From: a virus
Direction: 5' to 3' (one strand)
IMG/VR virus record: IMGVR_UViG_3300030090_003629
Location: 1 to 64,000 of that record
Length of the DNA stretch: 64,000 nucleotides
Shown: piece after piece, positions 2,370 through 58,389 of the stretch
How positions within the stretch are numbered: position 1 is the first letter of the stretch
Layout of the letters: each line of letters starts with the position of its first letter
Notes under the pieces: generated by a model
Databases searched by the model: none
What the model was told of the DNA's origin: nothing
Seen by the model: only the letters and a program-made list of their open reading frames with translations
Program-made: the position numbers and the translations under genes

Positions 2370-3392
2370 TTATGTTAAGGTTACAAGTCCACCATATACA
2401 ATATCACTAGTAGCTGTAACTGTTACTCTTATTGCTAGATAATTTGTAGCATCAGAAGCTACATCTGTCATATCACAAGCACTTCCAACTACACATCCAC
2501 CTCCTGGTGTTTTATCTGTCAAACCACTAGCATTAACATCTGCTTCAAAAACTTCTACCGTGTTACCAGTATCACTACCATATATAGTAACACTTGTTGC
2601 TGTTTTGCCAGTAGGTATATTTACAAAAGCATATAATTCACCATTTGCATCTGAAGCTCTTACACCTATAGTTCCAGTATCATCATACTGAACAGATTTA
2701 TTAAAACCACCATCTTCGTTTTGCATAAAGTCTGTTGGTAATAATTTTATACTAGTTTCACCTCTTAAACTTACAGCACCTGAGCTTACAACAAAATGAT
2801 TACTGTCAAAACTAGCTACACCTTTGTTTGATGTAGAGGCTTCTTCACCTTCAATAGTAATGGTAGTACCACTTATTTTTGTATCTATACCTTCTCCACC
2901 GCCTATAAAAAAATCTGCAGAACCAGCTGTATCTGAAGCAATATTTTCGTCATCAGCTTGAAAAGTTACTCCTGTTATATCTCCTGTATGCGTGTCAGAA
3001 TCTGTAGCAGAAGTTATACCTGTTACATGACCATATGTATCTAAGGTTATATCTTGTATAAATGTTCTGCCACTGTTATTTACACTAGCTTGTGATGATG
3101 TATCGTCATGATTTATTGTAACAGTGTCTGTAGCTCCAACAACAGTACTTATAGCATTACCACCTGCTATATCCATTGTATCACCACTAGATACAGTTTG
3201 ATTACTACCACTGTCACCTGTTAAGGTAAAATCTCCACCCCCGCTTACTGTGTTTTTTACAATTTTGTTGTTTGAATCTAAACCAAGATTACCACCACTA
3301 GCAATTGTTCCTGTGTCAATCTCTTCTAAAAAAACATCGTTACGAAATATAGTAATAAACTTTTCTATTTTTTTACCAATATATTTAAGCAT
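2370..3392 (-). CDS. Tail fibre-like / receptor-binding candidate
   Basis: About 340 residues, Gly/Ser/Thr/Asp-rich and predicted all-beta after a short basic N-terminus (MLKYIGKKIEKF). Segments such as FIQDITLDTYGHVTGITSAT match the repeated strand-turn pattern of phage tail fibres. I chose ATG 3392, which overlaps the upstream stop, over a TTG two codons earlier. Two Cys near the C-terminus (GGGCVVGSACD) may form a disulphide. It probably contributes to host recognition; the receptor is unknown. Confidence 0.65.
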   Translation of the reverse strand: MLKYIGKKIEKFITIFRNDVFLEEIDTGTIASGGNLGLDSNNKIVKNTVSGGGDFTLTGDSGSNQTVSSGDTMDIAGGNAISTVVGATDTVTINHDDTSSQASVNNSGRTFIQDITLDTYGHVTGITSATDSDTHTGDITGVTFQADDENIASDTAGSADFFIGGGEGIDTKISGTTITIEGEEASTSNKGVASFDSNHFVVSSGAVSLRGETSIKLLPTDFMQNEDGGFNKSVQYDDTGTIGVRASDANGELYAFVNIPTGKTATSVTIYGSDTGNTVEVFEADVNASGLTDKTPGGGCVVGSACDMTDVASDATNYLAIRVTVTATSDIVYGGLVTLT

Positions 3393-3852
3393 AGTCAATA
3401 TATTCTATTGTTACAGAATTACCGTTATCTAATTCATTTGCAATAATAGGATATACTCTTTTGTATGCTTGATTGGATTTACCTATAAAACCATTTTTTA
3501 CTAAATTATTGTTTTCTTGTGTATCTCCTAATAATAAACAACCTGCTGTATGTTCGTCTGTATTGCCACAATGAATTAATATATATTCAAAGTTTGGTAC
3601 ATTTCTTACCCATAACATACCTTTGTGGATGCTAGTAAATTTTTTTTTGTATCTATCGTGAAAACCACCTTGTTCTCTTAGGGTTATGTTATATTTACCT
3701 GCTGGTATTCTTGTTTCGCTATATACTTTTTTTGTTCTATATTCATCTTCTAATGTATAGCACAAAAATTTATCACCATCATTTGTCTCTAAAAAAAGTA
3801 AGCCAGAAGTACTATCCTCCTGGCTACTAAATCTTAATACTTTAAGTTTCAT
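3385..3852 (-). CDS. DUF5675 family protein (possible cell-wall or lysis-associated protein)
   Basis: The 155-residue protein matches the DUF5675 pattern: an N-terminal strand ending in YTLED (32-36), ETRIPAGKY (46-54), and IHCGN (93-97) followed by AGCLLLG (103-109). The conserved His plus Gly-Cys pair recalls L,D-transpeptidase-like active sites, so a peptidoglycan-linked role has been suspected for this family, but I know of no proven activity. It is about 1.1 kb from a holin-like gene. The stop overlaps the next ATG as ATGCTTAA. Confidence 0.7.
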   Translation of the reverse strand: MKLKVLRFSSQEDSTSGLLFLETNDGDKFLCYTLEDEYRTKKVYSETRIPAGKYNITLREQGGFHDRYKKKFTSIHKGMLWVRNVPNFEYILIHCGNTDEHTAGCLLLGDTQENNNLVKNGFIGKSNQAYKRVYPIIANELDNGNSVTIEYIDYA

Positions 3853-3855
3853 ATC

Positions 3856-4272
3856 TTAGTTGTCTAATGCATCACATATTAAATATCTAACGTGTTGATC
3901 TGCTGTTGCAGCTGTAACTTTTATACTACTACCAGAGCCATCACCATTTAATTCCATAGGTGCAAAGAAACATTCTCCTGGCTTTAGGTCAGCTAACTCT
4001 AATGCTGAACTTTCTGAAGCACTAGCTTCTACTTCTACAGGATAATCACTATCTACATTTTTTACAAAAACATAAACTCTATCATCATTAACATCTGCTA
4101 AAGCTAATTCACTACCTGCTGTTTGTGCTAAATGCTCACCTGTATATAAACAGTGTGCAGTTGTATTTCTTTCTGAAGTAAAGCTTGGGTTATAAGAAAA
4201 TATTAGTGTACCTTCTGAATCTGTTAAAGAAAAAGTACCCGAAGCTGTAAATGTTGTAGTCATTGTTGACAT
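3856..4272 (-). CDS. Small beta-sandwich-type virion protein, paralogue of the next upstream gene
   Basis: 138 residues, acidic, Ser/Thr/Ala-rich, with no signal peptide. It shares a layout with the 127-residue protein encoded at 4297-4680 and the 155-residue one at 38187-38654: a Ser/Thr-rich N-terminus, a VYVFVKNVDSD-like strand, then ELADLKPGECFF, a loop and a C-terminal strand. The shared pattern suggests repeated use of one small beta fold for capsid or tail decoration. Exact role unknown. Confidence 0.6.
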   Translation of the reverse strand: MSTMTTTFTASGTFSLTDSEGTLIFSYNPSFTSERNTTAHCLYTGEHLAQTAGSELALADVNDDRVYVFVKNVDSDYPVEVEASASESSALELADLKPGECFFAPMELNGDGSGSSIKVTAATADQHVRYLICDALDN

Positions 4273-4296
4273 ATCTATATTTTTTTATATTATTAA

Positions 4297-4680
4297 TTAT
4301 GCGTTTGAATCTATTTCTACTGCAAAATACTCTACAGTAACAGTAGCAGTGTCAGCATCTCCTCTAATTACACCATTGTCTCTAAGTATAGTAAAGAAAA
4401 ATTCTCCTGGCTCTAAGACAGCTATTGTATTGTCAGCATCATCAGCCATACTAATTGTCACAAAATTTGTGTCGTCTAAATTTCTTACATATACAACCTT
4501 ACCATATGTAGGGGCAGTCATTATAACTGTACCTCCAGTTGCTATATTTTTTCTACCTGTTTCTACCTGATCTATACCAGTTAAATTTAAACTAAAATTA
4601 CCACTTTCAGATTGCGTATATCCTGATGCAGAAGAAGCTGAACATGATATATTTGCGTTAAATGTATAGTTTTTTGCCAT
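4297..4680 (-). CDS. Small beta-sandwich-type virion protein
   Basis: 127 residues with the signature VVYVRNLDDTNFVTISM followed by AVLEPGEFFF, the same two blocks seen in the neighbouring 138-residue protein and in the protein at 38187-38654. The pattern, a strand naming a residue pair then a Pro-Gly turn, is common in phage structural accessory proteins. A possible host-type -7 box lies at 4696-4703 just upstream of its ATG. Role in the virion inferred. Confidence 0.6.
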   Translation of the reverse strand: MAKNYTFNANISCSASSASGYTQSESGNFSLNLTGIDQVETGRKNIATGGTVIMTAPTYGKVVYVRNLDDTNFVTISMADDADNTIAVLEPGEFFFTILRDNGVIRGDADTATVTVEYFAVEIDSNA

Positions 4681-4692
4681 TTTTATTTATTT

Positions 4693-4971
4693 TTACAAAT
4701 TTATAAAATTTTTTTTATATTTTTTTGAATCCATTATTTTTTTCAATTCTGCACATTTTTCATACTCTTCTAGAGTACAAAAATAATCAATTAAATCGTT
4801 AAAAACTTGATTATTTATCTTTTTTTTAGGAGGATAAGGTAAAACGCATCCATTATATTCAAAAAGTTCTCCAAAGGTAAGCTTGTTAGTTACGATAATA
4901 TATGCATTTTGCATAGATTGGTGATACAACTGTTCATCGTCTAAATCTAACGTACTCATACTTAATGTCAT
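4693..4971 (-). CDS. Hypothetical protein, 92 aa
   Basis: Starts with ATG at 4971 overlapping the stop of the holin-like gene (ATGA), so it is probably translationally coupled. The sequence is mixed helical with a Cys at about 42 and a YFCTLEEYEKCAELKKIM segment resembling a UVR-type helix pair; the C-terminus is Lys-rich. No domain recognised with confidence. Position behind the holin could make it a lysis accessory protein, which is inference. Confidence 0.55.
   Translation of the reverse strand: MTLSMSTLDLDDEQLYHQSMQNAYIIVTNKLTFGELFEYNGCVLPYPPKKKINNQVFNDLIDYFCTLEEYEKCAELKKIMDSKKYKKNFINL
4696..4703 (-). promoter_or_regulatory. Possible host-type -7 box
   Basis: Minus-strand TAAATTTG fits the Bacteroidota TAnnTTTG -7 consensus and lies 15 bases upstream of the ATG at 4680. 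No clear -33 element was seen and it overlaps the end of the upstream gene, so this could be chance in AT-rich DNA. Confidence 0.25.
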
Positions 4972-5354
4972 TTTTTAACTTTCTCTAATGATCTACCTCC
5001 AAAATAGGCACCAATAACAGTTATTAATACTAACTGTAACAAATCTACCCAAGACGCTTTAACCTCAAATGATATAACGCCTGCATCTATAAATATTAAT
5101 AATACTGTTGACACACATAAAAATATTAAAACTAATGGTCTTATATTTTTTGATAGCCAAGAATCAGAAGCCATATCAACCTTCCATCTTTCAGTTACTT
5201 GCTTTTGCATCTCAGCTTCATAACCCATAATCATATCTTTTATTTTTCTTTCAGCTTCTAATTTTTCTTGTTTAGAAGTATGTAAATTGTCTATAACCCC
5301 TCCGACATTTTTTACTAATTCTGCTGTTCCTTGTGATAATAAATTTCCTAACAT
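4968..5354 (-). CDS. Holin of the GTA/3TM holin type
   Basis: 128 residues. A helical, charged N-terminal region (about 25-60) leads into DMASDSWLSKNIRPLVLIFL (60-79), the hallmark of the GTA_holin_3TM family (DxxSDsWLsKNIRP). Hydrophobic segments at about 72-90 and 102-119 would span the inner membrane. Holins of this kind form membrane lesions that end infection and release or activate muralytic enzymes. It sits among late tail genes and overlaps the next ORF by four bases. Confidence 0.8.
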   Translation of the reverse strand: MLGNLLSQGTAELVKNVGGVIDNLHTSKQEKLEAERKIKDMIMGYEAEMQKQVTERWKVDMASDSWLSKNIRPLVLIFLCVSTVLLIFIDAGVISFEVKASWVDLLQLVLITVIGAYFGGRSLEKVKK

Positions 5355-5363
5355 AATTTTATT

Positions 5364-5720
5364 TTAATAACCTCCTCCTGTTCCTTGCCCTCCACCTGTA
5401 GGTGTTATAACTACTGGCGCTTGTGTTGGTGGCGCTGGACTAGCAGCTGGAGTTGGACTTGGAGTTGGTTGTGTATTAATTGTTGGTGCAACTGGTTGTA
5501 CAGGTGCACTAACTTCTGGTTCTACATCTACAAAAGGCTCTGCAACTGCTACTGTTACATTTGCTGTTGCGCCTGTATGAGTATATCCTCCCATATAACC
5601 TGTTATACCATTATAAACATGTGTATGGTATCCTTGTTGATTATTATCATTTGCCCATGTTAAGGCCTCTACTACAGAAGAATACAATGGTATTCCATCA
5701 ATCGTTGTTAATATGCTCAT
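5364..5720 (-). CDS. Proline-rich small protein, 118 aa
   Basis: The N-terminal 50 residues hold a compact segment with GYHTHVYNGITGYMGGYTHTG, rich in His, Tyr and Gly; the rest is a low-complexity Pro/Ala/Thr/Val tail ending in GGGQGTGGGY. The tail is probably extended and disordered. Its ATG overlaps the stop of the T9SS-like repeat protein by four bases. Possibly a tail-tip or surface linker protein; no family recognised. The antisense frame is rich in Trp and is only a shadow. Confidence 0.6.
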   Translation of the reverse strand: MSILTTIDGIPLYSSVVEALTWANDNNQQGYHTHVYNGITGYMGGYTHTGATANVTVAVAEPFVDVEPEVSAPVQPVAPTINTQPTPSPTPAASPAPPTQAPVVITPTGGGQGTGGGY

Positions 5721-8227
5721 TTTTTTATACTCTTTTTTTCTACAGTTCCATCGTTATATATAAAGAATAAAACTGTATTATATGTTATTTTATTTACAGG
5801 TCTACCTAATAAATCTGTAATTCCTATTAATTCTTTATTTATCATTCTTAATGGTATAGGTCCAACCCAACCATCAACACAATGATTATATGTAGCTTGA
5901 CATATTGTGTCCCATTCATTTTCACAACAATAATCATCTACTTCTAAAACCCATGCATAACAAGGGTCGTTTAACCAGTAAGGTATGCCTGGCCCTGTTA
6001 TACATCCTGCATCATATAAACAAGACAAACTATCATTTATATTAGCTAGTTCATTATAGTTGTACGCATTAAGATCCATACATCCTTGCACAATGCTAAT
6101 ACACGAACCATTGTCAGTATTAGCCAATGGATTATAGTTAAAAGCAGTAGAATCGGTACACCCATATACATAAGCGATACAACTAAAATCTTCAGTGTTT
6201 GCTTGTGGGTTGTAGTTAAGCATGCTAGGGTCAGTACAACCATAGATAAAAGGTATGCAAGTATTATTATCAACATTGGCTAAAGGATTATAATTAAACA
6301 TTGTGCTATCAGTGCAACCATATATAGGTAATATGCAGCTAAAGTCATCTGTATTACATGTATCACAATAATTTAAAGCTATTGGATTAGTACAACCGTA
6401 TATTACTGGTATACATGTTCCGTTGTCTGTATTAGCGACAGGATCATAATTATATGCAGAAGTATCCATACACCCATAAACAAACGGTATACAAGATCCA
6501 TTGTCTGTATTACAACTATCACAATAATTAAACATAGTTGCATCAGTACATCCATAAATGTAAGGCACACAGCTACTATCATCAACATTTGCGCTTGGCA
6601 TAAAATTCCACATTGTACTGTCTGTACATCCATAAATAACACCTATACAACTACCATCATCTGTATTTGCTAATGGATTATAATTTATAGCAATACTGCT
6701 CATACATCCATATACAATAGCTATACATGTATCTGGAGTATTAGCATTAGGATTGTAATTAAATGCTAATGGCTGCATACAGCCTGTTATAATTTGCACA
6801 CAACCACCGTTATCAATATTTGCTGAAACATCATAATTAAACGCATTACTATCGGTACAACCCCATATAGCTTGCGTTACACAACTACCGTCATTATAAT
6901 CTGCTATAAAACCTTGTGTATAGTATTCTAAATAACTTGAGTTAGTACAACCTGGACTATAATAACAACTACTATCTGTTGTGTTTGCTTCTTCATAATA
7001 ATTTATAGCTGTAGAATCTAAACAACCATATACTTTTTCTTCACAAGTGTTACCACAATTTGTAAGCAAACCGTAAGGAAATAATGGCTGTATAAAAGGT
7101 GGCTGTATACTTATTAAAGTATCTCCTTCAGGGTTTATAAATGTAAAACCACATTCTATAGTCGTTAATGCTGCTTGTGAAGATATATGAAATATAAACT
7201 CCATAGGAGCAGGTGCAGATAAGTTTATTTGATATTCGTCATTAAAGCCACCTGTATGGTTAAAATGATACACACTATCTGGATGGTTTAAAACTAAATG
7301 AGAACCTACCCAACCATTACCCATCAAGTCATGCAATACTAAAGTAAACTCACAATCTGCAATCATATCCATAGTATTAGCATTTGGATCATAATTAAAC
7401 ATTGTAGAGTCTACACATCCATATATTTTTAAAGTTTGACAACTTCCATCGTCTACATCGGCAAATGGATTCCATTCTACATAATCATCATCTGTACATC
7501 CATATATAGGTGGACATGAATCAGAAGCAAATACATGTGATGTGTCGTTACCAAAAGCAGGATTTGTACCATACACTAAGGTATCATTACATTGTTTTAC
7601 AAAATAAGAACCATCTTGTCCCTGCCATAACGCACCATTTAATCCATCACCATAACTATCATATATAGTAAATATTAACTCTCCCTTTGGTATACAAACA
7701 GGAACTACAATAGTAGCATAATCTGGATTACCTGCATAAGTAACTGACTGTGCGTATACCACACCATTGCTGTCTTTTATATCCCAACTAGTTTCTCCCT
7801 GATACTGATCTAAGTTTATAATAACTTTAGCAGGAACACAAGGTGGTGGTTGAGGCATACACTGCGGTACTACTCTATTATGAATTAAGCCATTTGTAAA
7901 TGTAGGATTTGGGTAGCTAACTATAGTATCTTCACACACAGAAACATAATAACTTCCTCCTGGTATACCATCACCATACGAGTCATATATAACCCAAGAT
8001 ATATTTGTTATACTATCTGCTAATAATACTGTATCTGTATGGGTTGTATTTTGTAAATTATAATGCCCATATTGTACTTCTGCAATAAGCGGGCCTTGAA
8101 AACTGTCTGCAAACAACACCCATCTTGTTTCTGATGGATAGCTATCTGTAGTTAAATGTATAACAAAATCTTTTTGTCCAAAAACAAATAAAGGTAATAA
8201 TAGTATTGTTAAAAATATATTTTTCAT
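5717..8227 (-). CDS. Secreted repeat protein with T9SS-like C-terminal sorting domain
   Basis: About 836 residues. It begins with a typical flavobacterial signal peptide (MKNIFLTILLLPLFVFGQK), then two copies of a roughly 100-residue domain each marked by DSYGDG, then 15 copies of a 25-26-residue Cys repeat of the form YGCTDSTAFNYNPLANTD, and finally a C-terminus (ITDLLGRPVNK ... YNDGTVEKKSIKK) like the type A sorting signal of the type IX secretion system. Such proteins are host-cell secreted or surface proteins, so in a phage this predicts export and surface display. ATG 8227 is preferred over 8239 because it lies just after the upstream stop and begins the signal peptide. Confidence 0.8.
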   Translation of the reverse strand: MKNIFLTILLLPLFVFGQKDFVIHLTTDSYPSETRWVLFADSFQGPLIAEVQYGHYNLQNTTHTDTVLLADSITNISWVIYDSYGDGIPGGSYYVSVCEDTIVSYPNPTFTNGLIHNRVVPQCMPQPPPCVPAKVIINLDQYQGETSWDIKDSNGVVYAQSVTYAGNPDYATIVVPVCIPKGELIFTIYDSYGDGLNGALWQGQDGSYFVKQCNDTLVYGTNPAFGNDTSHVFASDSCPPIYGCTDDDYVEWNPFADVDDGSCQTLKIYGCVDSTMFNYDPNANTMDMIADCEFTLVLHDLMGNGWVGSHLVLNHPDSVYHFNHTGGFNDEYQINLSAPAPMEFIFHISSQAALTTIECGFTFINPEGDTLISIQPPFIQPLFPYGLLTNCGNTCEEKVYGCLDSTAINYYEEANTTDSSCYYSPGCTNSSYLEYYTQGFIADYNDGSCVTQAIWGCTDSNAFNYDVSANIDNGGCVQIITGCMQPLAFNYNPNANTPDTCIAIVYGCMSSIAINYNPLANTDDGSCIGVIYGCTDSTMWNFMPSANVDDSSCVPYIYGCTDATMFNYCDSCNTDNGSCIPFVYGCMDTSAYNYDPVANTDNGTCIPVIYGCTNPIALNYCDTCNTDDFSCILPIYGCTDSTMFNYNPLANVDNNTCIPFIYGCTDPSMLNYNPQANTEDFSCIAYVYGCTDSTAFNYNPLANTDNGSCISIVQGCMDLNAYNYNELANINDSLSCLYDAGCITGPGIPYWLNDPCYAWVLEVDDYCCENEWDTICQATYNHCVDGWVGPIPLRMINKELIGITDLLGRPVNKITYNTVLFFIYNDGTVEKKSIKK
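6006..7033 (-). repeat. Thirteen tandem 25-26-codon Cys repeats
   Basis: Within the T9SS-like gene, 13 consecutive units share the frame GC-x-D-x-x-A/M-x-N-Y-x-x-x-A-N-x-D-x-x-S-C. Two further units lie upstream at about 7380-7505, separated by an intervening domain. Two units replace the NPLAN segment with CDSCN or CDTCN, adding two Cys. DNA copies have diverged, so the array is old or selected at protein level rather than freshly expanded. Confidence 0.85.
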
Positions 8228-8228
8228 A

Positions 8229-8591
8229 TTAAAAATCACTCATCATTTGATTGTCTATTTCTTCTTGCACCTCTTCTTTAGTTGCCACCATTTTAAAACT
8301 TAGATCAGCCTGAAATCTTATTACCTCTTCATTATCTTTAAAAATTATAATAGTAGGTATTACAGCTATTTTATGTTTTGTAGCTAATTCTTTTTGACTT
8401 GCTATATCTATATAAGATATAGTTTTAACATCATTTAATTTATCTATCCATTCTACACCATTAGACTTATTCCATTCAGCATTAAAGTATGCTATTTTAA
8501 CTTGTCCAAAGGCTGAGTTAGAGAACAATATAAAAAGTATAATAGTAAAATACATAACATATAATCTCCAATCAACATTTGTCTCTTCCAT
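8229..8591 (-). CDS. Exported thioredoxin-fold protein lacking the CxxC active site
   Basis: 120 residues. A hydrophobic segment (about 11-29) ends in AFGQ, a common flavobacterial signal-peptide end, and is followed by VKIAYFNAEWNKSNGVEWID, the thioredoxin beta-alpha start in which the usual CxxC is replaced by NKSN (41-44). The cis-Pro motif VIPT (77-80) and the following IIIFKDNEEV strand are intact. It would act in the periplasm or membrane but cannot do dithiol exchange by the normal mechanism. It directly precedes the Cys-repeat secreted protein and follows a one-helix protein. Confidence 0.65.
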   Translation of the reverse strand: MEETNVDWRLYVMYFTIILFILFSNSAFGQVKIAYFNAEWNKSNGVEWIDKLNDVKTISYIDIASQKELATKHKIAVIPTIIIFKDNEEVIRFQADLSFKMVATKEEVQEEIDNQMMSDF

Positions 8592-8872
8592 TATCTGTTA
8601 TACAATTTATCTTCTATTTTTTCAAGAGTCTTTTTTATTTCTTCTACGTCATCTTGTGTGTCTAATATAGTTTGACGTATCATTTGATCTTTCATGTCAA
8701 ACTCCATACGTGTAACTTCTGGATCTGGTGGGGCAGGCAGTTCTTTTGCTTCAGCTATATCTGCCTGTAACGTAAACCACATTCCAACAAGAGTCGTTAT
8801 TAGAGCAGCAATTCCACCTAAAGTTTTTATACTTATCTGAAAAGACGTTTCTTCATTTAACTCTTTAGCCAT
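8591..8872 (-). CDS. Single-helix membrane protein with C-terminal coiled coil
   Basis: 93 residues: a short polar N-terminus, one transmembrane helix (about 17-36, LGGIAALITTLVGMWFTLQA), then a charged helix ending in DDVEEIKKTLEKIEDKLYNR, a likely coiled coil. The layout resembles small phage accessory holins or spanin-like subunits, but no hallmark decides. Its stop abuts the next start at 8591. A role in lysis or in the envelope cluster is plausible. Confidence 0.6.
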   Translation of the reverse strand: MAKELNEETSFQISIKTLGGIAALITTLVGMWFTLQADIAEAKELPAPPDPEVTRMEFDMKDQMIRQTILDTQDDVEEIKKTLEKIEDKLYNR

Positions 8873-8962: not shown

Positions 8963-10063
8963 TTAAAATATTATATAATTAACACCAAATTTAAAATCAT
9001 ACCACTCTCTGTTCCAATACTTATTGTATTTACCCTCTAAAAAATACCCTAAGCTTTTGTCTGCTTTTATACCATATATTAGACCAAAAGTATAATCATA
9101 CCATTGATTATCTTCTATATAGTTATGATAAGTAAACTCACTACCATCATTATAATGCCAAGGTAATAAATTACCCCATGCATGTAACCATGTTTGTTTA
9201 CTATATTTATAATAATCAAAACCTATAACTATAGAATGTTGTATAAGTTTTTCTAATTCATTTCTTTTTTTATTTGTATAATCAGATATAACTTTAGGTA
9301 TTACAACTTCTTTCCATACATCAGAACTTGTTGCAACTATGGCACCGCTAGGATCTTTATACTCACTATTTGCTACATCTATGGTATACCCTTCTTGTAT
9401 AGCTAAGTAAGTGTAATGTAAATTCCCATTATCCAAGATCCATTCTTCTAGCGGATTATATCCATATGGTTCTGCTAGTCTGTGTACGGCACCAATACTA
9501 AATGCTAAATCTGCATTTTTTTTAAATCTATATCTTTCTGATAGCTCAAAATATTCTACGTCTGCAAATCCATCTTTTAAATATTCTACTTTTGCAGCAA
9601 AATGATTTACACAAAATGGACCTTCACAATCGTCATCAGAACTATATCTTATAAAATGATGATGATCTATATAATCTAAACCCTGTTGTCTAGCGTAGTC
9701 AATTTCAAACAAATACTCAAATCCTTGTACTTTCCCTACTGTAGCAGCATCTGTATAATTAGACTCTGTACCATCATAAAAAGTATTTGCTTTATTTTCA
9801 TAACCAAACCTTGCTATCTTTCTTATACCAACTGTTAATGAATAATCATAGGGTGTTGTAATTATTTGTTCTTGTAGTTGTCCTTGTGTTATAGAAAAAA
9901 CTTTGGCATCTGACACTGATGTTCCTCCGTTTACAGCAGCGTATATTGTAGAAAATTTTAATTGTTTTTTTATTTTTTCTTCTATATTTATTTGTGCACA
10001 ACATTTTTTCTGTGTGCCGCATGATGCTAATATAAATAATAATATAATAATATAGTTTTTCAT
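8963..10063 (-). CDS. Lipoprotein with outer-membrane-barrel-like body
   Basis: 366 residues starting with a lipoprotein signal (MKNYIIILLFILASCGT, lipobox LASC with Cys15). The mature part is rich in alternating aromatic/polar strands and ends in FGVNYIIF, with a terminal Phe as in many outer-membrane beta-barrels. No enzyme motif was seen. Phage-encoded envelope lipoproteins can block superinfection or alter receptors; that role is inference. It begins the envelope cluster that continues through the thioredoxin-like and T9SS-like proteins. Confidence 0.6.
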   Translation of the reverse strand: MKNYIIILLFILASCGTQKKCCAQINIEEKIKKQLKFSTIYAAVNGGTSVSDAKVFSITQGQLQEQIITTPYDYSLTVGIRKIARFGYENKANTFYDGTESNYTDAATVGKVQGFEYLFEIDYARQQGLDYIDHHHFIRYSSDDDCEGPFCVNHFAAKVEYLKDGFADVEYFELSERYRFKKNADLAFSIGAVHRLAEPYGYNPLEEWILDNGNLHYTYLAIQEGYTIDVANSEYKDPSGAIVATSSDVWKEVVIPKVISDYTNKKRNELEKLIQHSIVIGFDYYKYSKQTWLHAWGNLLPWHYNDGSEFTYHNYIEDNQWYDYTFGLIYGIKADKSLGYFLEGKYNKYWNREWYDFKFGVNYIIF

Positions 10064-10068
10064 ATTGT

Positions 10069-10800
10069 TTAAATACTCATGCCTAATTTATCTGCTAAAC
10101 CATTAGTTACAGACGTGAGCTGTTCTGTAGTTAACTCAACACTATATAGGGCTAATTCATATAAATTACCGTCTAACGCTCTATCATTATCATTTCTTAT
10201 ACATAAATTTTGCAAATCAAAACCATGATCATTTGTTGCATTAGTGCTACCAGTTTGTGGAATCTGTGCTCCATTTATAAACCATTTATGCTCTCCCGAA
10301 CTATTTCTTGTTAGAGCTACAATCATTTTACTTCCATTTAAAAAAACATCATCTTGACATCTTAAAACTGTAAGTAAATTAGAAGGATTGTTATATTTTA
10401 ATCTAAAATTAGTTGGATTTTGTATTTCTAAAAATTCATTACCACTATCAGATAAAATTACTCTATTTTGCAAAGCTCCTGAACCACTTATCAAAACAGC
10501 AAAAATTAAAGTATATGGATCTCCTTGACCAATAGTTATTTTTTGAAAATCCATCCATTGCGAATCACTACCACTTTGATCAAATCTTAAACCTCCATCT
10601 ACAATTCCTGCAGGTCTATTTACAATAGTTGATTGTGTTGCATCTATTCCTCCAGGGCCAGAATCTACCCATCCAGCAGTAGAAACTCCAACACCATTTT
10701 GATACCATATCATTAAATTTGTACCCAAACCACCTTCATCAGCTAACACTGGTAGAGGAGTTTCCAATAATTCATTTGCTATACCAAGTCCTAATGACAC
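10069..10800 (-). CDS. LamG/concanavalin-like surface protein
   Basis: 243 residues. From about 70 on it follows the LamG-type jelly-roll pattern: GGLRFDQSGSDSQWMDF, YTLIFAVLISG, KWFINGAQI, and the terminal LYELALYSVELTTEQLTSV strand-helix that closes many laminin-G-like domains. These domains bind glycans or proteins. In a late phage operon this suggests a tail-surface or receptor-binding protein. The N-terminus may attach it to the tail. Confidence 0.65.
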   Translation of the reverse strand: MSLGLGIANELLETPLPVLADEGGLGTNLMIWYQNGVGVSTAGWVDSGPGGIDATQSTIVNRPAGIVDGGLRFDQSGSDSQWMDFQKITIGQGDPYTLIFAVLISGSGALQNRVILSDSGNEFLEIQNPTNFRLKYNNPSNLLTVLRCQDDVFLNGSKMIVALTRNSSGEHKWFINGAQIPQTGSTNATNDHGFDLQNLCIRNDNDRALDGNLYELALYSVELTTEQLTSVTNGLADKLGMSI

Positions 10801-10801
10801 T

Positions 10802-10957
10802 TTACCAGTTTTTAGGGTTAAAATAATAAAATATATTTTTTTTCTTTCCCTTAACTTTTTCGTATAATGTGTTTTGTTTTACTATATAGTTTGGTTGTTC
10901 TATATCTTTTTTTACTCTTTTAGTATTGCGGCTTGCTAGTTTTTGTATAAACCCCAT
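10802..10957 (-). CDS. Small basic protein, 51 aa
   Basis: ATG at 10957 lies one base beyond the stop of the upstream gene and the frame ends one base before the next ATG. The product (begins MGFIQKLASRNTKRVKKD, ends FYYFNPKNW) is strongly basic and aromatic. The exact packing between neighbours supports it. Function unknown. Confidence 0.5.
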   Translation of the reverse strand: MGFIQKLASRNTKRVKKDIEQPNYIVKQNTLYEKVKGKKKNIFYYFNPKNW

Positions 10958-10958
10958 A

Positions 10959-11330
10959 TTAATATCCTCTTGGAGCTAAGTAACAAATACAACTTCCTGC
11001 GTGCAACTCTACATTATCCCACTTACCATATAACCATGTCCCTGCAGGCCACTCTACACTACCAGCTCCTGTACCTAAATCTGTGCTTTCTGTAGCAGCT
11101 CCAAATTGTGTAGTTCTAACATTCTCTGCGGTTATTGTGCTTATGTTTCTTACATCTCCGTTTGTATTTGCTAATACTTGAAATTTAACTGCAGTCACAA
11201 CATATATAGCACAAACATATGCAGTTGCTGATCCTCCATCTAAGTCTACCTTTTGTCCATCTCCTGTTATGTAACAAGAACCAAAATCACCTAAACCAGG
11301 TATTGTTTTTAAATCATTTACGTTTGCCAT
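10959..11330 (-). CDS. Small virion protein, tandem paralogue A (123 aa)
   Basis: Shares start (NVNDL), a central GDFGSCYITGDGQKVDLDG strand pair and a nearly identical C-terminus (YGKWDNVELHAGSCICYLAP) with the adjacent gene at 11352-11726. It is probably a beta-rich head or tail decoration protein. A pair of Cys near the end (SCICY) is conserved in both copies. The gene lies immediately downstream of its paralogue in the same operon. Confidence 0.65.
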   Translation of the reverse strand: MANVNDLKTIPGLGDFGSCYITGDGQKVDLDGGSATAYVCAIYVVTAVKFQVLANTNGDVRNISTITAENVRTTQFGAATESTDLGTGAGSVEWPAGTWLYGKWDNVELHAGSCICYLAPRGY

Positions 11331-11758: not shown

Positions 11759-14700
11759 TTATCTAATTAAAGAACTAGTTTCTTTTTTATCTCCCTCCAT
11801 GTTATACACATCTCTAGCTATACTTCTTCTTACTGATGAATATGGAGCTAAATCATATAACAATGTTTTTGCAGCTTTAGAATCTCCCTTTTCTCCATAA
11901 GGTCCAGACCTTTTTATTTTATCTCCTCTTACAGATTGCCCTATCATTTCTGTAGCATTTTTTATTGTGCTATAAGAAGCAGGAACTAAAGTGTAATTAA
12001 AGAATCTGTCGTAATCTGTAGTTACAAAAACATCATTAGAAAACTTTTTTAATGTTCTTATCATATTAGGATCTGAGTCTTCATCATCTTCCATTATAGC
12101 TATTAAACTTAATAGCGTTATACCTATACCCATACCTCTAAGGTGTGCTGCTATTTCAGCTTTTCTAGCTTCATTAGAATTATCCCATATTGCTTTTAAT
12201 TCTTTTTTACTTGTATTACCAGCTATATAACTTCTAAATAAATCTCTTACAAATTCACCTGTTGCCCTGTAGCTACCTATGTTAACTTTACCAAATCTGT
12301 CTATATCTTCTGCACTAAACCTGTCTTTTAATAATGTTACAAACCATTTTTTAAATTGTAACAATGCTCTACCATAAGAATACATAGAAAGTAAACTAGC
12401 GTCTAAAGCTGTATAACCCTCACCGTGCAGTGTAGATATTTTATGATTAATTTGCATTACACGTTCTTCAGTTATTAAATCTGGATTATTAAACTCTTCT
12501 TCCGTAAGCTCTCCTAAAAATGCAGCCCCTTGTATATAGTTTTCTGTAGCGTCCATAAATATATAAGACCATTTTTCTAGTTTACCAAAAGCTCCTTTAG
12601 ATTCTGACAAATGTATAAATTCATCAAAACTATATTCTACTATTCTAAATCTTTTTAGTATATCTCTAGATTCATATAGATTTTTAAAATAACGAGTTTC
12701 TCCTTTAATAAATTGTGCTCCACCTTTTTTTCTTAACTCTTGATATTTACCTGCTAATACGTTACCTATACCTACAGTCATGTTAAATCCTAACAATCTT
12801 AAAGATGTAAGCCTTACAAAACTATCTATAACTTTGTCTCCTGTTTTACCTAAAAAGCTTTCTTGTTGTCTGCCTTCTATAAATCCTTCTTTCCACCATC
12901 TTGTTAAATAATTAGCCGCATTTTTATTGTCTAAACCTTTGTTAAATGCTATAACAGAATCTATTAAAATAGACACTTTAGACATACCAGTAAAAGGATT
13001 TTCTATACCTTTAGACTTTTGTAAATCTACGTTTTCTCCATTCATAAATAATGAACCTCTTATAAATTCTAACAACGAACTGTTAATATCATAAGATATA
13101 TTTTTAGCTTTTATTCCTCTTCTTCTTTCATATTCTTCTATTAACTCTCTATCTACATCTGTAATGTTATTATCACCCATTAATTTTTTAATCATAGCAC
13201 CATTGTTTATTAATGCATCATACTCCATATCACTTAATAATATTTTAGAGCCATCCTCATTAATACCTTTAGCTTTTAATTCTTTAGCTTTTCTTCTTAG
13301 TTTATCTAACTCATATATCTGTCTACCAGATTCTAAAGTTAATTTACCTGTCCTGCCTTTATATACATCGTACTTCCATTCGTATAAAGTTTTTAAAACT
13401 CTATTGCCGCTTTTATCTAAACCGTATACTTTTACACGCTCTATATCATAAGTGTCAATAGTATTATCATATAAACCAAATAAACTGTTTCTTGACATTT
13501 TTTCTAATGTACCCATTTGCATGCCTGGTATTATATATGTGTCTGTGTTTAGTAATTCCTGTGCAACATTTTTATATTCTGTATAATATGCTCTTTCTTC
13601 TTTTGTTAAATTTTTATCAGCTAACTCTTCTTCAGTTAATAATCTAATATTACCATTTTCAAATGTAGCTATATTTCCATATATATACTTGTATCTAGCA
13701 TTAGTGTCAAAACCTTGTCTTACTCTTTCTAAAACGCTTAATCCTTTATTTTTAGATCTAACTAAACTCCTGTTTGCTTTTTCTAGTCTATCTTTATATC
13801 TTTTAAATGCTCTTAAATAGTTTCTATATTCAAATTGTATTTCATTTATTAATAACTGTAACTCTGGTCTTTTAGAAGATATATTATTAGATGTTAACCA
13901 GCTTTCTAATCCAGACATATCTTCTTGTTCCACACCATCTAATCCAGGAACTTTATATTTATATCCTTGTCGCTTTCCATCTGCTTTTAATTTTTTTGTT
14001 TGTATTTCAAATAATCTTTTTCCTATTTCTTTTTCTACTATATAAGAAATATTTTTAGTTGCAGAATTATCCATAGATCTTAACTTAAAAGCTCTTTTTC
14101 TTAAATCTTCTAGATTGTATTTAGACAATGGTTTCTTTTCTAAACTAGACTCAAACTCTTGCACTGTTTTATAGTGTTCTCTATATTTAATATATTTATT
14201 ATATAATTGTTCAGCTATTTTAGACTCTTTAATTTTTTGTATATCTATGCCTTTGTCAGCTAAATATTCTGAAAAAGATAAAATATTATTATCACCAGAT
14301 ATATAATCATTATTGTATGTTGTAGAAGAAGAAATAACTTTTTTTGCTTTTTTTGTAGGATCTATAAAAGTATTATTTTGTTTACTTGCCTTGTCTATTT
14401 TTTTATCAGTAGTTAAGTTTTTATTTAATTCGTCAATTATTGCATCATCTAATTCTATGCTATCTAAATTATCAAGATTACTCATATCATTAACATCATC
14501 GTATTTAAATTCTGGTTCTTTAGTTTGATTATTTGTTATAATTGTATTTATTTCATCATTAATTTTATTAATATACTCATTGTCAAAAAAAGGAATAAAT
14601 GATGCTGCCCCTCCTGCTCCTCCTGTAAATCCAAAGCCATTAAACTCTGCTTCTAGTTCAAATATTAAATTCTTTTCTTCTGGCAATAAATTAGAAAAAG

Positions 14701-17700
14701 ATTCTTTTATTTGATCAATAGATTTATAAGATATAAAATCTGTTACTTCAACTCTATTTATTACAACCTTGTCTCCTTTTTCTGTTACTTCTATTATTTT
14801 GTCTGTAAAGATATTATCTTTACCGTACTTTTCTTTCAGTGATATAAAATTATCTATTAAAGTTTCTCTATTTTCTATTTTAGATAAAAAACTTATATTA
14901 TTTTTTAAATCATTTATTATAACTCTATTTATTATAGCGCTGTATTTATCTGGATATAACATTTTTAACTCAGCATAAGATTCATTATTAATTATGCCTT
15001 GCATATATGGTGTAAACCTTATATCTGTAACAAAAGCTCTTTCTAATACAGTACTGAATAACTTTACAGCATGCTCTACAATACTGTTAAATCTACTTTC
15101 TCCTAGTTGGTAAGGTAATGATAGACCTCCACTTTTTCTATCATTTATAGTAATAAAATTTGTTTGTAGTTTCTTAATTTTTTGTGTTATTTGTCTTAAC
15201 TCAAATGGATTTTTTTCTATCTTTTGATGTACAGTAAAAGCTTTTCCAAAAGGATTTACAACATCCTCATTAAATTTGTCTAATGCATATAACATTATTA
15301 TAGCATCAAATTCAGCATTTCTGTTTTTTCCTTTAGTTAATAAGTCATTTATATTTATATTAATACCTTCTCCCTTTAGTCTAGAAACTATTGTTTCCCA
15401 CCTTTTTTGATCTATTCCTTTTCTTTTTTTACCAGTAATTTTTTGTTTATAAAAGTAAGTTAATTTTTTAACACCTTGACTTTCAAAAAATTCAGCCAAC
15501 TCATTTACATTATTAACTTGATCTTCTAAAAACATTTCTTGTATGTCGCTATCTTTAGAAATATAGTTTTTACTTCTCTTGCTTTTAAAATCAATATACT
15601 CTTGTACTATTGGGCTGTTAAATAGTAATGTTAAGTCATTTAAAGAATAACCTAACCTTCTTAACATAATATAAGAAAATATCGTTTGTTTATTTAATCC
15701 TAGTTTACTTGCATATTGATGTTTTGCATTATCTAAAACTATATTTAATAGTTGTGCAACCCCATACCAATTACCCACTCCGTTTTCTAATTCAGGATCA
15801 TCAAAAAACTTATCGTGTGTAACTGCTTCAGACTCTCCTTTTAACGTTATTTTAAAAGGTAATTTTTCTTCATTATTAGAAAATATATTAAATGTTCTTT
15901 GTAATGCAGCAACTATACCTACCAATGATTTTGCAGGAACATTATCGTTAAACATTTCACTATCTCCTAAGGGGTGCAATTGTGATTCTTCTTTTTGTTT
16001 TTTATTTTTATAAAGGCCTTTAGATTTAGCCTGTTCTATTGCATTATCCGAATCAGATACAAAGTCAATATTAGCTGTAATTTCATTTGTTCTTTTTTTA
16101 TTACTAACTAATTTTACATACAAATCAAAAAACCTGTTAGATTTTTTTCTCCAAGATTTACCCCTTTCATTTACCTCCTTTTCTGTATACTTAAAATTCA
16201 TATGAACAGAATCTCCATCTAAATCTGCCCCCCAAAACTTACTTACTTTTGCTGGTATAGTTATATTAGAAGTTGGTGTATCATCTATTTGAGCATGAAA
16301 ATCTTTTACTACAAACACAGAACTAGTAACCTTTCCGTGTGAAGGTACTCTTGTACCAATAAATAAATCTCCTACCTCTACACCTTGATCTTTTAAATAT
16401 CCAGGAACTATAGCTTCAGAAGCAACTATACTTTCATCTTCTGCAAACAATCCTTTTTCGTATGATTTTAAATTCATGCCTAAACTTGATGACTGATATG
16501 CTATAGATCCTTTTGTATACATTTTAGTTCCTCTATGTGTTATCCTACCTCTAGCTATAGAGTTATAAGAAGCATTTGCAAATGGGTATCTAGGATCTAA
16601 TGTTTCAAAAACAGAATCAAATAATACCCCATATATATCTGCACTAACAGAACTAGCAAAAGAATCTCTTTCTTTGTATACTGTTTCTCTAGTAGCGGTA
16701 TTATTCATAATTAAACCAGCTTTTCTATTTCTGCTTTCGTTATTAGCTTCCATAACATCTTTTCTTAAACCATACATTTCTTTAAGTATAAGTTTTTCTT
16801 CTTCTGTTATTATGTTTGTAGCTAAATTGTAAAATAATTGTGATGGAAAAAATCTTTCATCTGTTTGCTTATCTAACTCTAATTGTATACCAAAACCTTC
16901 TCCTGACAAGCCTCTATATCCAGTATCGTCTTTATACAACAGGTCTTGTCTTTTCATAATATTATCTATATTGTCTAAATTTTTAATATCATGTATATCT
17001 TCTTTTGTTCTTATGCCATCTAAAAATAATTTAGCAGCAGACTCTGACGCAGCTATTACTAGATTACCTGGTGTTTTAGAAATATCTTCTACTTGTTCTT
17101 GACGTTTTCTTAATACCTCTCCTATATTTTTTAAGTATTCACTTTTAGCTTCTAACTCTCGTGTTAATGTATGTACAGCAAATTTTAAATATGTTGTCTT
17201 CCCTTTTAACTTACCTTCTGTTTCTGTATAATGATAAACAAACTTAAATACATTACCTACTTTTTGTGACTCTCCATATTTTTCTCTAATAATTTTTGCT
17301 TGCTCAGGCAATACATAACCCATAGCATCATTTTCTATATAGTTATTATCAGTTTCTTCTGTAGTAATCTTATTATTATCATCAATAAAATAATCTTTTA
17401 TTATAATAGGCTCTATCATAGTGTTTCTATCAAACACAACATGACTTGCTATTGCACCTGCAGCTCTTTTTATATAATCTATTTCATCTTTAGATTGCCT
17501 GTGATCATGTACAAATAGTTGTTGCGCCATAAACTTATTAGCAATATGTGATGTTAAATATGCTTCTATAGCTTTATCTATATCTTTTGTTTCTAATATG
17601 TCTTCATTGTTTATGTATAAATCCTTATTAATTCTCATGTGTTGTTTAAAATCAACAACTAATTTCTTAATGTTTTTTATTCTATTGTTTTCAATTACAT

Positions 17701-20700
17701 AAGGAAATATATCTGATCCTTTTTGATACTTTTTGCCATATGCTGGATTTCTTTCAATTCTTGACAATAATTCTTTTCTTGTTTTACTATTGTGAGCCAT
17801 CATACTTTCTATATAATATCTTCTGCTTTTGTCAGAAAATACAGCTATAGGCTGATCGTATATTATTGTTTCTTCTTTATTTTTTATTCCTTGATTGTAT
17901 TGCGATAAAAATTGTAAAAAATCACCTGCAACTAATTCTTTAGGAGTTACATAGTTTAGCTTAGAAGCTCTACCTTCATATTTTACAGCTTCAGCTTTAG
18001 CAATTAACTCACGCATCATACCAGAGTGTATAGTAAACCTAAATGGGTTTTGACTAACTTTACCATTGCTTCCAGTTAGCACCCCTCTTGCTTTTTTACT
18101 ATACAATAAATAAGAATATATATTATTATCTGGATGCATTATATCATCTTTAGATATATCTATTTCTTCATTAATTATATTAGCTATATTTTTTGCTCTA
18201 TTATGTAAGCCGTTTTCTTTATTAAATATACTGACACCGTCACCCATAACATTATCTACCATAGACAAATAATTAATAGCTCTAGATGCCACAAGACCTT
18301 CTGTTAATATTACTTTTAACTCGCCTTGTTTTCCAAACATTAATCCATAAGCTTTGTATTTTCCTGTTTGTACAGTAAATTTACCTTCTTTATCAATACC
18401 CATTAAAGATTGATATTTTAAATTAGGTTTGCCATTTTTAAATCTTTTGTGTTCAAATAATAAATTCCATAAATACTGTCTTTTACCATCAAATAATATT
18501 TCAGTATTTAATAAAGCTCTTTTGTCTATTAGCTTACCTTTTGCATTATCATCTAAAATTATATCTAAATATTTTGTTGCTGCTATATATTTTTGCTTAG
18601 AAGTAGGTTTTTCATTTTTAAATAAATTATCATATACTTCAGCTAACTTTTTCCCTTTTTCAGTGTTGTTATTTAAATCTTTAAGTATGCTACGTATAAC
18701 GCCTTGCTCTAATGTTTTACTAATAGTTCTGTATTTTTTAAAAGACTTAACAGCTCTACGTCTTGATTTGTCATATTTTATTTCTAATGCCTGATGTGAT
18801 AAAACCTCTATTGTAATACCTTCAATGGGTCCTTTAATTTCCATTAACTTAGCGTTAGTTAAAATTTTATCATTATTATATAAATTATCTAACAAACCTA
18901 ACATAGCTTCTATTTCTCTACTTCCAGACTTTCTTACATTTGGTATAAAATCATATGGATCATACATAGTATTTTTAGACATGCTATATAAATCGTATAA
19001 TAATTTTTTTCTATCTATTACTTTATCAGGATTTTGATTGTTATAAACCTCTACTATTTTTTTTATAAAATTAGAAGTTGTTGTAGGTAAGGCTATTTGT
19101 TTTACATCATCATCAAAATTTCTTTCTGCACCAGGCTGACTTTCATTACCATCTTGACTTACATCTTCTTCTTTACCAATACTTTTTCCTATATTAGACA
19201 ATATACGATCTAGTTTATCGTCTGCTAATTTTAAATCATTTGGTCTTGTTTTTTGTCTAACTACAGCTTCAACTTGCGATTTTATAAAATCTACATCTTT
19301 TATTGTTAATTCACTATCCTTTGCTATTTGTTCAACTACTCTATCTGCAATTTGTTCTGATGTTAATCCACGCCCCATAAAATCACCTATAGTTTTAGAT
19401 AAAGCAGAATACGTAGATCTTTTTCTAATTGCTTTTTTCTTAGCTTTATTTATCGGTCCATATGCAGAATTTTGCATTACAGGTACTGTTCTGTTTCCTG
19501 AATTAAAGTCTAAAAGTATATGTTTTATTGCAGCTTCTAAATCTAAACTTTGTATATTGTCAACTGATAAATCTAATAATCTTTTTGCGTCTTCATTAGA
19601 TGTTAGCTTTTTTACTTTCTTATAAAACTCTATTAAATCTTTTTCTAATCTTTTTTGTGTTGCGGTTCCTTTTATAACAGCATCAACATTATCATAAGAA
19701 TAAAATTCTAAAGTTCTTGAAAATGTTTCTTCTAACAAATGCCTTTGTCTGTCTACTCTAACTTCTTTAATTCCTTGTGCTTTTAATTGTAGTCTAAGCT
19801 CATTAAACAATTCCATTGTTCTTGTGCCGTCATTGTTTCTTTCTGCTATAGCAATGTTTTCTGAAATACTTACAATATCACCAGTATAATCTGCTTTATT
19901 ATTTAATGCGTTTCTATATATAGCTCCAATAGTAATATTTTGCCCATTAACTCTCATTAATGTTAACTCAGGATATTCTTCTTGTGTCTTTTTGTATAAT
20001 AAAGATTTAGGTAAAAGCTTTTTTATTCTTTTCATTAATGGAGTTTTTTCCATTAACGAATAATATATATGTCCTGCTTCGTGTATAATATCAGATTGCC
20101 TAACTTCGTTTTCGTTTATCATAAGCGTAGCGCCTATTGCTAATGATGTAGCTTCTTGTCCATAATCATCATACAATGCTTTTTGTACTACGTAACCCTT
20201 AGCTCCAGGAAAGTTTTTGTTTATAATAGACCTAGTTAATGCGGAAGCAGCTAAACCTGAATCTGTATATACTTCTAAATTACGATTTAATAATATTGGA
20301 TCATTTTCTTTTATAGTAGAAAATGTGCTTTTTATGAATTTATTAAAATTATCTTTTGTTTGCTTTACTGCGCCTACTACCTTATCTATACTTCTAGTTT
20401 CTTTTTTCTTTGCTTTTTTTGTTGTGGTTTCTTCTATTGTAAAATCTTGATATTGTAATTGTCCAATAACCTTATTATCTACTATTACTTCAATTTTACT
20501 TTCATATAATGGTGCTCCTTTTTTATATTGAAAATATAATTTACCATTAACTTCTACCACATCAGCTTGCCCTGCTACTGGTTCTACTAAATTTAATTTA
20601 ACATTTTGTGGTGTTTTAGTTAAAGCTTCTGCTCCAAAAGGTTTAGATGTAAAAAATTTGATAACTTTACCTGTAGCTGTTTTTAATATGTAACTAGTAG

Positions 20701-57564: not shown

Positions 57565-57706
57565 AAAACTTATAGATCAAGTAGATGATGCATTTAATTA
57601 CTTTAACGGATTTAGATTAGAAGAGTTAAAGTCTGACGATGTATACTATATAAATGCGTTAATGAAATATATAGAAGTTTTGGAATTAAAATTAAAAAAC
57701 AAATGA
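57557..57706 (+). CDS. Small acidic helical protein, 49 aa
   Basis: ATG overlaps the end of the previous gene and its TGA overlaps the uracil-DNA glycosylase ATG (ATGA). The product is a charged helix pair (KLIDQVDDAFNYFNGFRLEE). Tight overlaps on both sides support it. Possibly a partner or inhibitor, unknown. Confidence 0.5.
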   Translation: MARKLIDQVDDAFNYFNGFRLEELKSDDVYYINALMKYIEVLELKLKNK

Positions 57707-58389
57707 AATCAAATCAAATGTATAATATGCTAGGAGACTGGTACAAAATATTAGGTATCATATTTCAATCAGAAAACTTTACAAAATTAACTGATCAACA
57801 CAGAAATAACACAACTGAGTATACGGTTTATCCAGAAAAAGGTAGAACATTTAAGGCTTTCAAAATGTGTCCTCTAAAATCTTTAAAAGTTGTTATACTT
57901 GGACAAGATCCATATCATGATGGTAGCGCAACAGGATTAGCATTTGCAAATAATGGTGGTAGAGTTAGTCCTAGTTTGCGCAACATAATACAAACAGTTA
58001 AAAATGATTTTGGAGATGTATATGTAAATCCAAATCTAGAAAGCTGGGCAAAACAAGGCGTATTATTATTAAATACCGCTTTAACTGTAGAGAAAGGTAA
58101 GGCTGGATCACACATAGATTTGTGGATGCCATTTACGAGAGATCTTATAACTAGTCTTTCTATATATAAACCAGATCTAATATGGGTCTTATGGGGTAAG
58201 AAAGCACAAGACTATGAAAAGCATATTATGTATCCAAATGGACATACTATACTAAGAGCTCCTCATCCTGCCGCAGAGGCGTACTCTGGTGGTAAGGCTG
58301 GCTTCTTTACATGTGGACATTTTAAGAAAATTAATGAAAAATTAGAAAAGCCTATAGAGTGGGGTGTAAAACAACAAATAACAATTTAA
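57703..58389 (+). CDS. ung: Uracil-DNA glycosylase, family 1
   Basis: 228 residues of normal family length. GQDPYH (67-72) carries the catalytic Asp, and APHPAAEAYSGGKAGFFTCG (186-205) is the conserved loop with the catalytic His before the Leu that enters the groove. It removes uracil from DNA for base-excision repair. Members are common in crAss-like phages. It lies in a run of overlapping small early genes. No truncation seen. Confidence 0.93.
   Translation: MKSNQMYNMLGDWYKILGIIFQSENFTKLTDQHRNNTTEYTVYPEKGRTFKAFKMCPLKSLKVVILGQDPYHDGSATGLAFANNGGRVSPSLRNIIQTVKNDFGDVYVNPNLESWAKQGVLLLNTALTVEKGKAGSHIDLWMPFTRDLITSLSIYKPDLIWVLWGKKAQDYEKHIMYPNGHTILRAPHPAAEAYSGGKAGFFTCGHFKKINEKLEKPIEWGVKQQITI

Follow-up and report, generated by a model that had tools for sequence, protein, structure and literature searches.

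We describe a four-gene envelope cassette, built around a predicted outer-membrane β-barrel that we call OMP366, in a 64,000-nucleotide stretch of viral DNA (the window), which is nearly the whole of a 65,665-base virus record. The virus is marine and one of Bacteroidota-type bacteria. Because the barrel travels with three further envelope genes across differing viruses, and the cysteine-rich product of one of these genes ends in a host-type secretion tail, viruses bearing this cassette probably alter the surface of their host cells during infection. The explanation that we favor, a tentative one, is that OMP366 is dedicated to carrying or anchoring the secreted protein encoded beside it (GCTD), and that the two belong to a late surface coat dependent on a type IX secretion system (T9SS).

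The barrel family

The OMP366 reading frame (positions 8963 to 10063, minus strand) is open for 366 amino acids from an ATG start; its product begins MKNYIIILLFILASC... and ends in phenylalanine. The family to which it belongs is far larger than chance would allow. A first scan of viral contigs returned 111 relatives. At least 583 viral-contig matches came from a profile scan and at least 546 from a scan in which a 47%-identical member was the query; the three counts overlap. OMP366 has no family match in Pfam (E ≤ 1) or PHROGs, a single weak match to an unrelated family in NCBIfam (E = 0.052), and none among PDB sequences. A tblastn search of 50,697 phage records found no relative of the window protein and one chance-level match (E = 5) to the divergent relative L083. 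No isolate is known to carry the barrel gene; a profile search that took in Fpv1, elemoF, phi14:2, ProJPt-Bp1, phi46:3, and crAss001, all of them cultured or named, found it in none of the six. In a bacterial genome collection, it occurs at four loci, all in contigs of metagenome-assembled genomes (MAGs), of which at least two (L082 and L083) hold the entire cassette; these are presumably binned phage contigs. A narrow literature search, from which subscription papers were mostly absent, found nothing that names the cassette or the outer-membrane barrels of marine Bacteroidota phages.

An earlier note on this DNA had read in OMP366 an exported lipoprotein with a barrel-like body and a terminal phenylalanine, inserted in the outer membrane of the host. 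The signal peptide is well borne out: 164 of 165 relatives have a signal-type start, and the exception, which a contig end truncates, shows neither type. The lipobox (LASC, residues 12 to 15, with the cysteine at residue 15; positions 10019 to 10030, minus strand), which is followed by GTQKKCCAQ, is real in OMP366 but fails as a family trait, being present in 38 of the 165 relatives (27 of 81 in one set and 11 of 84 in the other); 126 have a signal-peptidase-I-like ...xQ site instead. Close relatives, ~80% identical to the window protein, differ in whether they have a lipobox, so that lipidation appears to be an exchangeable trait and the lipid anchor, judged by these sequences, is dispensable across the barrel family. 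The usual form of the lipobox is C..PK.CC.Q, a pattern that was found, when all loci were scanned, on 59 barrels and four GCTD proteins and on nothing else. The terminal phenylalanine is not general either. It holds for OMP366 and for 103 of the 161 relatives complete at the C terminus (163 listed, less L084 and L085, which stop at contig ends; two further cut relatives were omitted), the others ending in R, L, Y, or I.

The barrel prediction proposed by the earlier note was run with AlphaFold2 on two alignments (56 and 63 sequences), and both times it gave a barrel of 12 long antiparallel strands. These models are of moderate confidence (mean pLDDT, 73.4 and 72.4), with residues 85 to 112 not resolved; a 70-residue insert follows strand 7, and strands 1 and 2 are kinked in the second model. 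Among the matches listed by Foldseek against the PDB, all are outer-membrane barrels or complexes of them, the best including NanC, KdgM, NalP, and FapF, which are 12-strand barrels. One structural match stands far above the rest: BFVD entry A0A516LKJ4 (E = 8.5e−21; TM, 0.60/0.64; 22% identity), a viral protein; tblastn found no relative in the phage collection. Two entries in the VIA fold list were set aside. An outer-membrane phospholipase was considered from the match to OMPLA (Z = 9.1), but no HxS motif was seen by eye, and the match to the T9SS complex chain 8gl6_F (Z = 9.2), one among many barrel matches, shows nothing.

With strand faces assigned by hydropathy, polar-face positions vary less than hydrophobic-face positions in 11 of the 12 strands, a count that includes the near tie in strand 291 to 305; strand 129 to 141 has the opposite trend. 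The linkers at 165 to 168 and 350 to 351 barely vary, and residues 83 to 113 and the long insert are better conserved than most of the remaining linkers; the strongest conservation lies in the lumen-facing residues and one set of loops. Strand alternation averages 3.09, against 2.20 in shuffles, although strand by strand it is mostly not significant. With its signal peptide and its antiparallel amphipathic strands, OMP366 as modeled is an outer-membrane β-barrel, and the insertion in the outer membrane that had been proposed for it is thereby supported.

Four genes inherited together

Beside the barrel, the cassette comprises a small transmembrane/coiled-coil protein (TMcc), an exported thioredoxin-like protein (trx), and a protein with cysteine-rich repeats (GCTD), all encoded on the minus strand of the window. 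TMcc93 (8591 to 8872) belongs to a conserved family and has, by eye, a hydrophobic N-terminal segment followed by an acidic, helical, coiled-coil-like part. The next gene, trx120 (8229 to 8591), encodes an exported protein of the thioredoxin fold (PF00085, 23.9 bits against a cutoff of 23.5) that lacks the CxxC active site; CxxC occurs in 5 of 141 trx relatives, in all five inside the signal segment and in none in the mature part. GCTD840 (5717 to 8239) consists of a signal peptide, N-terminal domains, cysteine-rich GCTD repeats, a C-terminal domain, and a sorting-like tail. Both trx120 and GCTD840 have signal-peptide-like starts, which bears out the mention of neighboring exported proteins in the earlier note.

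Its description of an envelope-directed cluster inside the late block likewise agrees with what we find, which is a cassette whose four genes are inherited together. Among the 79 loci mapped out of the first 80 for the barrel, many of them on cut contigs, GCTD is present at 70, trx at 68, and TMcc at 66; among the 84 loci of a second, more distant clade, the corresponding numbers are 75, 72, and 69. The linkage is also seen in 21 records of at least 40 kb that were picked by terminase or holin rather than by the barrel: 14 have all four genes, 3 have some, and 4 have none. The three partial records are G007, whose contig is cut inside GCTD, and G023 and G024, which we judged to be cut from match coordinates near a contig end. 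Of the four without the cassette, one stops before the locus (G004), two look like other phages that have only the holin in common (G021 and G025), and one, G002, has a clean empty locus, with both flanks kept, all four genes absent, and a terminase 92% identical. In G002, other small genes, one of them transmembrane/coiled-coil-looking, stand between the same flanks (L225 [G002:C1:1-20000], 15843 to 18922).

The cassette occurs, on sequence evidence, in crAss-like and contractile-tailed phages alike. Of 28 cassette-bearing records, nine have a contractile sheath, eight have a terminase of the window type, none has both, and 11 have neither. The arrangement varies in one contig, L033, in which two barrel copies (4267 to 5367 and 10001 to 11077; ~69% and ~74% identical to OMP366) flank the TMcc, trx, and GCTD genes. 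A small nuclease-like gene adjoins the cassette in some contigs; one matches staphylococcal nuclease (L319, 7756 to 8211), and another is similar to it by eye (L226, 12222 to 12590).

The secreted partner and its tail

The C-terminal domain of GCTD840 is highly conserved, and the N-terminal parts vary among relatives, one of which (L014) has an N-terminal MAM domain; the median number of cysteines in 62 relatives is 39. The T9SS type A domain is found above the cutoff in three relatives (L046, L060, and L062), and PF18962 is found above the cutoff in a fourth (L340). Only 4 of 57 GCTD C termini match the type A model TIGR04183 at all, and the remaining 53, that of GCTD840 included, have no match to it. 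The short tail of these others, GCTD840 among them, also ends 10 distinct proteins of one Flavobacteriales MAG, lying no more than 3 residues from their C termini, which makes a sorting tail of host type the likeliest reading; the comparison covers that one MAG, and the bacterial origin of the proteins depends on its binning. The ten (L394 to L403) have in common a 40-residue tail, DLLGR...YIYDDGSVEKK, which goes unreported by the type A model in most phage copies and is perhaps a sorting signal that has yet to be modeled.

PorP/SprF-like proteins are 14-stranded barrels of the FadL type. Like the gene for OMP366, the PorP/SprF barrel genes of the Bacteroidota T9SS lie next to one whose product is secreted to the cell surface and has a sorting region at its C terminus. 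By analogy, the pair of barrel and secreted protein may work most like SprF/PorP with type B adhesins. As passages in PMC9143113 and PMC12618676 describe, SprF/PorP barrels collect or anchor cognate proteins with type B C-terminal domains encoded next door. The differences are considerable. OMP366 matches none of the PorP/SprF models in Pfam or NCBIfam and by sequence lies outside that family; it has 12 predicted strands rather than 14, at moderate confidence and with residues 85 to 112 not resolved; and the PorP/SprF cargo has type B tails, whereas the GCTD tails are type A-like or short and the OMP366 system is encoded by phages. Twin cysteines in the periplasmic tail of SprF are described, in part of PMC12635249, as bonding to the gliding track. 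The nearest parallel here, the CC pair close to the N terminus of the lipobox-form barrels only, is missing from most relatives. A precedent for phage-encoded T9SS cargo is Cryophage, which, as a section of PMC7468147 presents it, carries proteins with T9SS sorting domains; that phage has three variable cargo genes, whereas the viruses described here have a conserved four-gene cassette with an outer-membrane barrel of its own.

Proposed surface coating of the infected cell

The sequence family, the linkage, the barrel prediction, and the homology of the tails are observed, and from them we infer localization, interaction, timing, and benefit as follows. The host Sec pathway would export both the barrel and the GCTD protein. 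The latter would then pass the outer membrane by means of its T9SS-type C-terminal tail and the host type IX system, and the barrel would retain it on the cell surface. TMcc93, with its putative inner-membrane anchor and periplasmic coiled coil, and trx120, which has no cysteines, could serve as a periplasmic tether or chaperone. If the cassette is switched on with the late and lysis genes, the infected cell would be coated shortly before release. The likely gain would be that phages no longer adsorb to the infected cell and its debris, or that cell contact is changed; superinfection exclusion, the function for which the barrel had been put forward in the earlier note, is then one possible benefit of surface display.

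Several observations speak for a carrier role: the predicted barrel, the linkage of the cassette, its presence in differing phage types, the T9SS-like tails, and the C..PK.CC.Q signal that barrels and GCTD proteins share. Others speak against it, namely, the many tails without a type A match, the want of a PorP/SprF match and the difference in strand number, the moderate confidence of the models, and the absence of the cassette from the close relative G002; moreover, the binding of barrel to GCTD protein is something that we infer. Broader than the carrier role, and held with more reserve, is the proposal that the cassette is a mobile, self-contained display system in morphologically different phages of marine Bacteroidota, in which the phages' own barrel as carrier, a pair of helpers in the periplasm, and a variable-tipped adhesin with a host-type T9SS tail take over the type IX system of the host and re-coat the cell before lysis. 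If these proposals are true, lytic marine phages exploit host type IX secretion late in infection through a dedicated outer-membrane carrier, and several hundred or more uncharacterized viral contigs are tied to one testable function. The cassette would also be a candidate for how these phages handle the outer membrane or re-adsorption at release, and it would offer small, naturally varied pairs of carrier and cargo for the study of T9SS recognition.

Lysis and other explanations

The main rival to a carrier role is lysis of the outer membrane, which we consider unlikely but by no means negligible. Here the cassette would replace or assist a spanin, with TMcc93 as the inner partner and the barrel, sometimes lipidated, as the outer partner, and the outer membrane would be breached after holin and endolysin had acted. 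The lysis-gene neighborhood suits this rival as well as it suits the carrier role. Downstream of the cassette in the window lie a holin (4968 to 5354, minus strand; phrog_3427, E = 3.1e−31) and a DUF5675 protein (3385 to 3852, minus strand; PF18925), and in the record G009 a peptidase M15 gene (L226, 5650 to 6105) occupies the place of the latter, which hints that DUF5675 may be a cell-wall enzyme. An endolysin lies directly downstream of the cassette in L340 and L325, and in L325 a holin adjoins the endolysin. Amidase_2, a single gene wherever it occurs, is found in 8 of the 28 cassette-bearing records and lies 0.9 to 3.6 kb from the barrel gene in seven of these eight, on contigs of 53 to 173 kb; random independent placement would give such nearness with a probability of 7e−7, a figure uncorrected for the relatedness of several of the records. 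The eighth record (G029) has its amidase 42 kb off, and the other 20 records have no Amidase_2 match. Peptidase M15_3, found in 4 of the 28, lies, by its coordinates, within a few kb of the cassette in G009 and G054, ~25 kb from it in G040, and at the far end of the contig in G051.

The resemblance to the spanins Rz/Rz1 extends to the pairing of an outer-membrane protein with a small one of the inner membrane that is coiled-coil-like. TMcc93 has by eye the layout of an i-spanin, a single hydrophobic segment at the N terminus being followed by a part that looks helical; a simple scan of window reading frames of at least 40 amino acids found no small o-spanin-like lipoprotein; and the empty locus of G002 has a different small transmembrane/coiled-coil gene in the same place. 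The outer partner, however, is ill-matched. The o-spanins are lipoproteins, mature Rz1 having only 40 amino acids according to a portion of PMC6139136, whereas here the partner would be a 366-amino-acid barrel, mostly not a lipoprotein, accompanied by two further exported proteins. The same portion of PMC6139136 counts 91 of 677 phages in which no spanin was detected, and the close relative G002 does without the cassette. Lysis also leaves unexplained a GCTD protein with a sorting tail and changing N-terminal domains.

That the barrel by itself brings about superinfection exclusion, by inserting in the outer membrane and blocking the receptor of the phage, is improbable. Known phage products that act on an outer-membrane receptor include Llp, the exclusion protein of T5, and Cor of phi80 and N15, a small protein; OMP366 can be likened to Cor by description, but its barrel fold and its cassette are different. 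The export of the barrel, the lipobox in the window, and the dispensability of the cassette in G002, as expected of an accessory, fit such a role, and the inactivation of FhuA by Cor is a mechanism described in part of PMC11436027. The barrel is inherited, however, with three other genes, the largest of which encodes a T9SS-type secreted repeat protein that an exclusion lipoprotein alone does not explain. The cassette is found in phages with different tails, which need not have a common receptor, and conservation is concentrated in the lumen and on one loop side, whereas lipidation is not conserved.

More doubtful again is a channel for nutrients or solutes that aids the infected host in the manner of a phage-borne porin. 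The closest folds include the 12-strand KdgM, Tsx, and NanC, and the polar lumen is conserved, but the likeness is one of fold only, with just 5 to 11% identity to OMP366 in the VIA-list rows for such channels, and a late place among lysis genes and linkage to an adhesin-like secreted protein are ill-suited to uptake. It is very improbable indeed that OMP366 is a structural protein of the virion with a hydrophobic N terminus that is not a signal peptide, since, despite its place in a late operon adjoining structural genes, its relatives have two interchangeable kinds of signal peptide, its predicted fold is that of an outer-membrane barrel, and it is present in phages of different morphology.

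Genomic setting

The terminase of the record shares ~30% identity, and its capsid protein ~28%, with the crAss-like phage counterparts, and the late block runs in the order terminase, portal, capsid, and giant virion proteins, as it does in Flavobacterium phage Fpv1 and Cellulophaga phage phi14:2. By its homologous terminase and capsid and its syntenic late block, the window genome appears to be that of a Crassvirales-like phage, a description that is not a formal classification. Directly upstream of OMP366 lies a gene for a LamG-like protein (10069 to 10800, minus strand; PF13385, E = 6.6e−06, 26.8 bits against a cutoff of 27.6). Farther upstream, a 3,947-amino-acid protein (11759 to 23602, minus strand) contains a GADLDGD stretch that resembles the catalytic loop of RNA polymerases, and it is likely to be an RNA polymerase packaged in the virion, like that of crAss-like phages; a scan with its last 500 amino acids returned only three loci and was unusable for counting. 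On the plus strand, the product of a gene at 57703 to 58389 has by eye the look of a uracil-DNA glycosylase, an enzyme for which phi14:2 and Fpv1 also have annotated genes.
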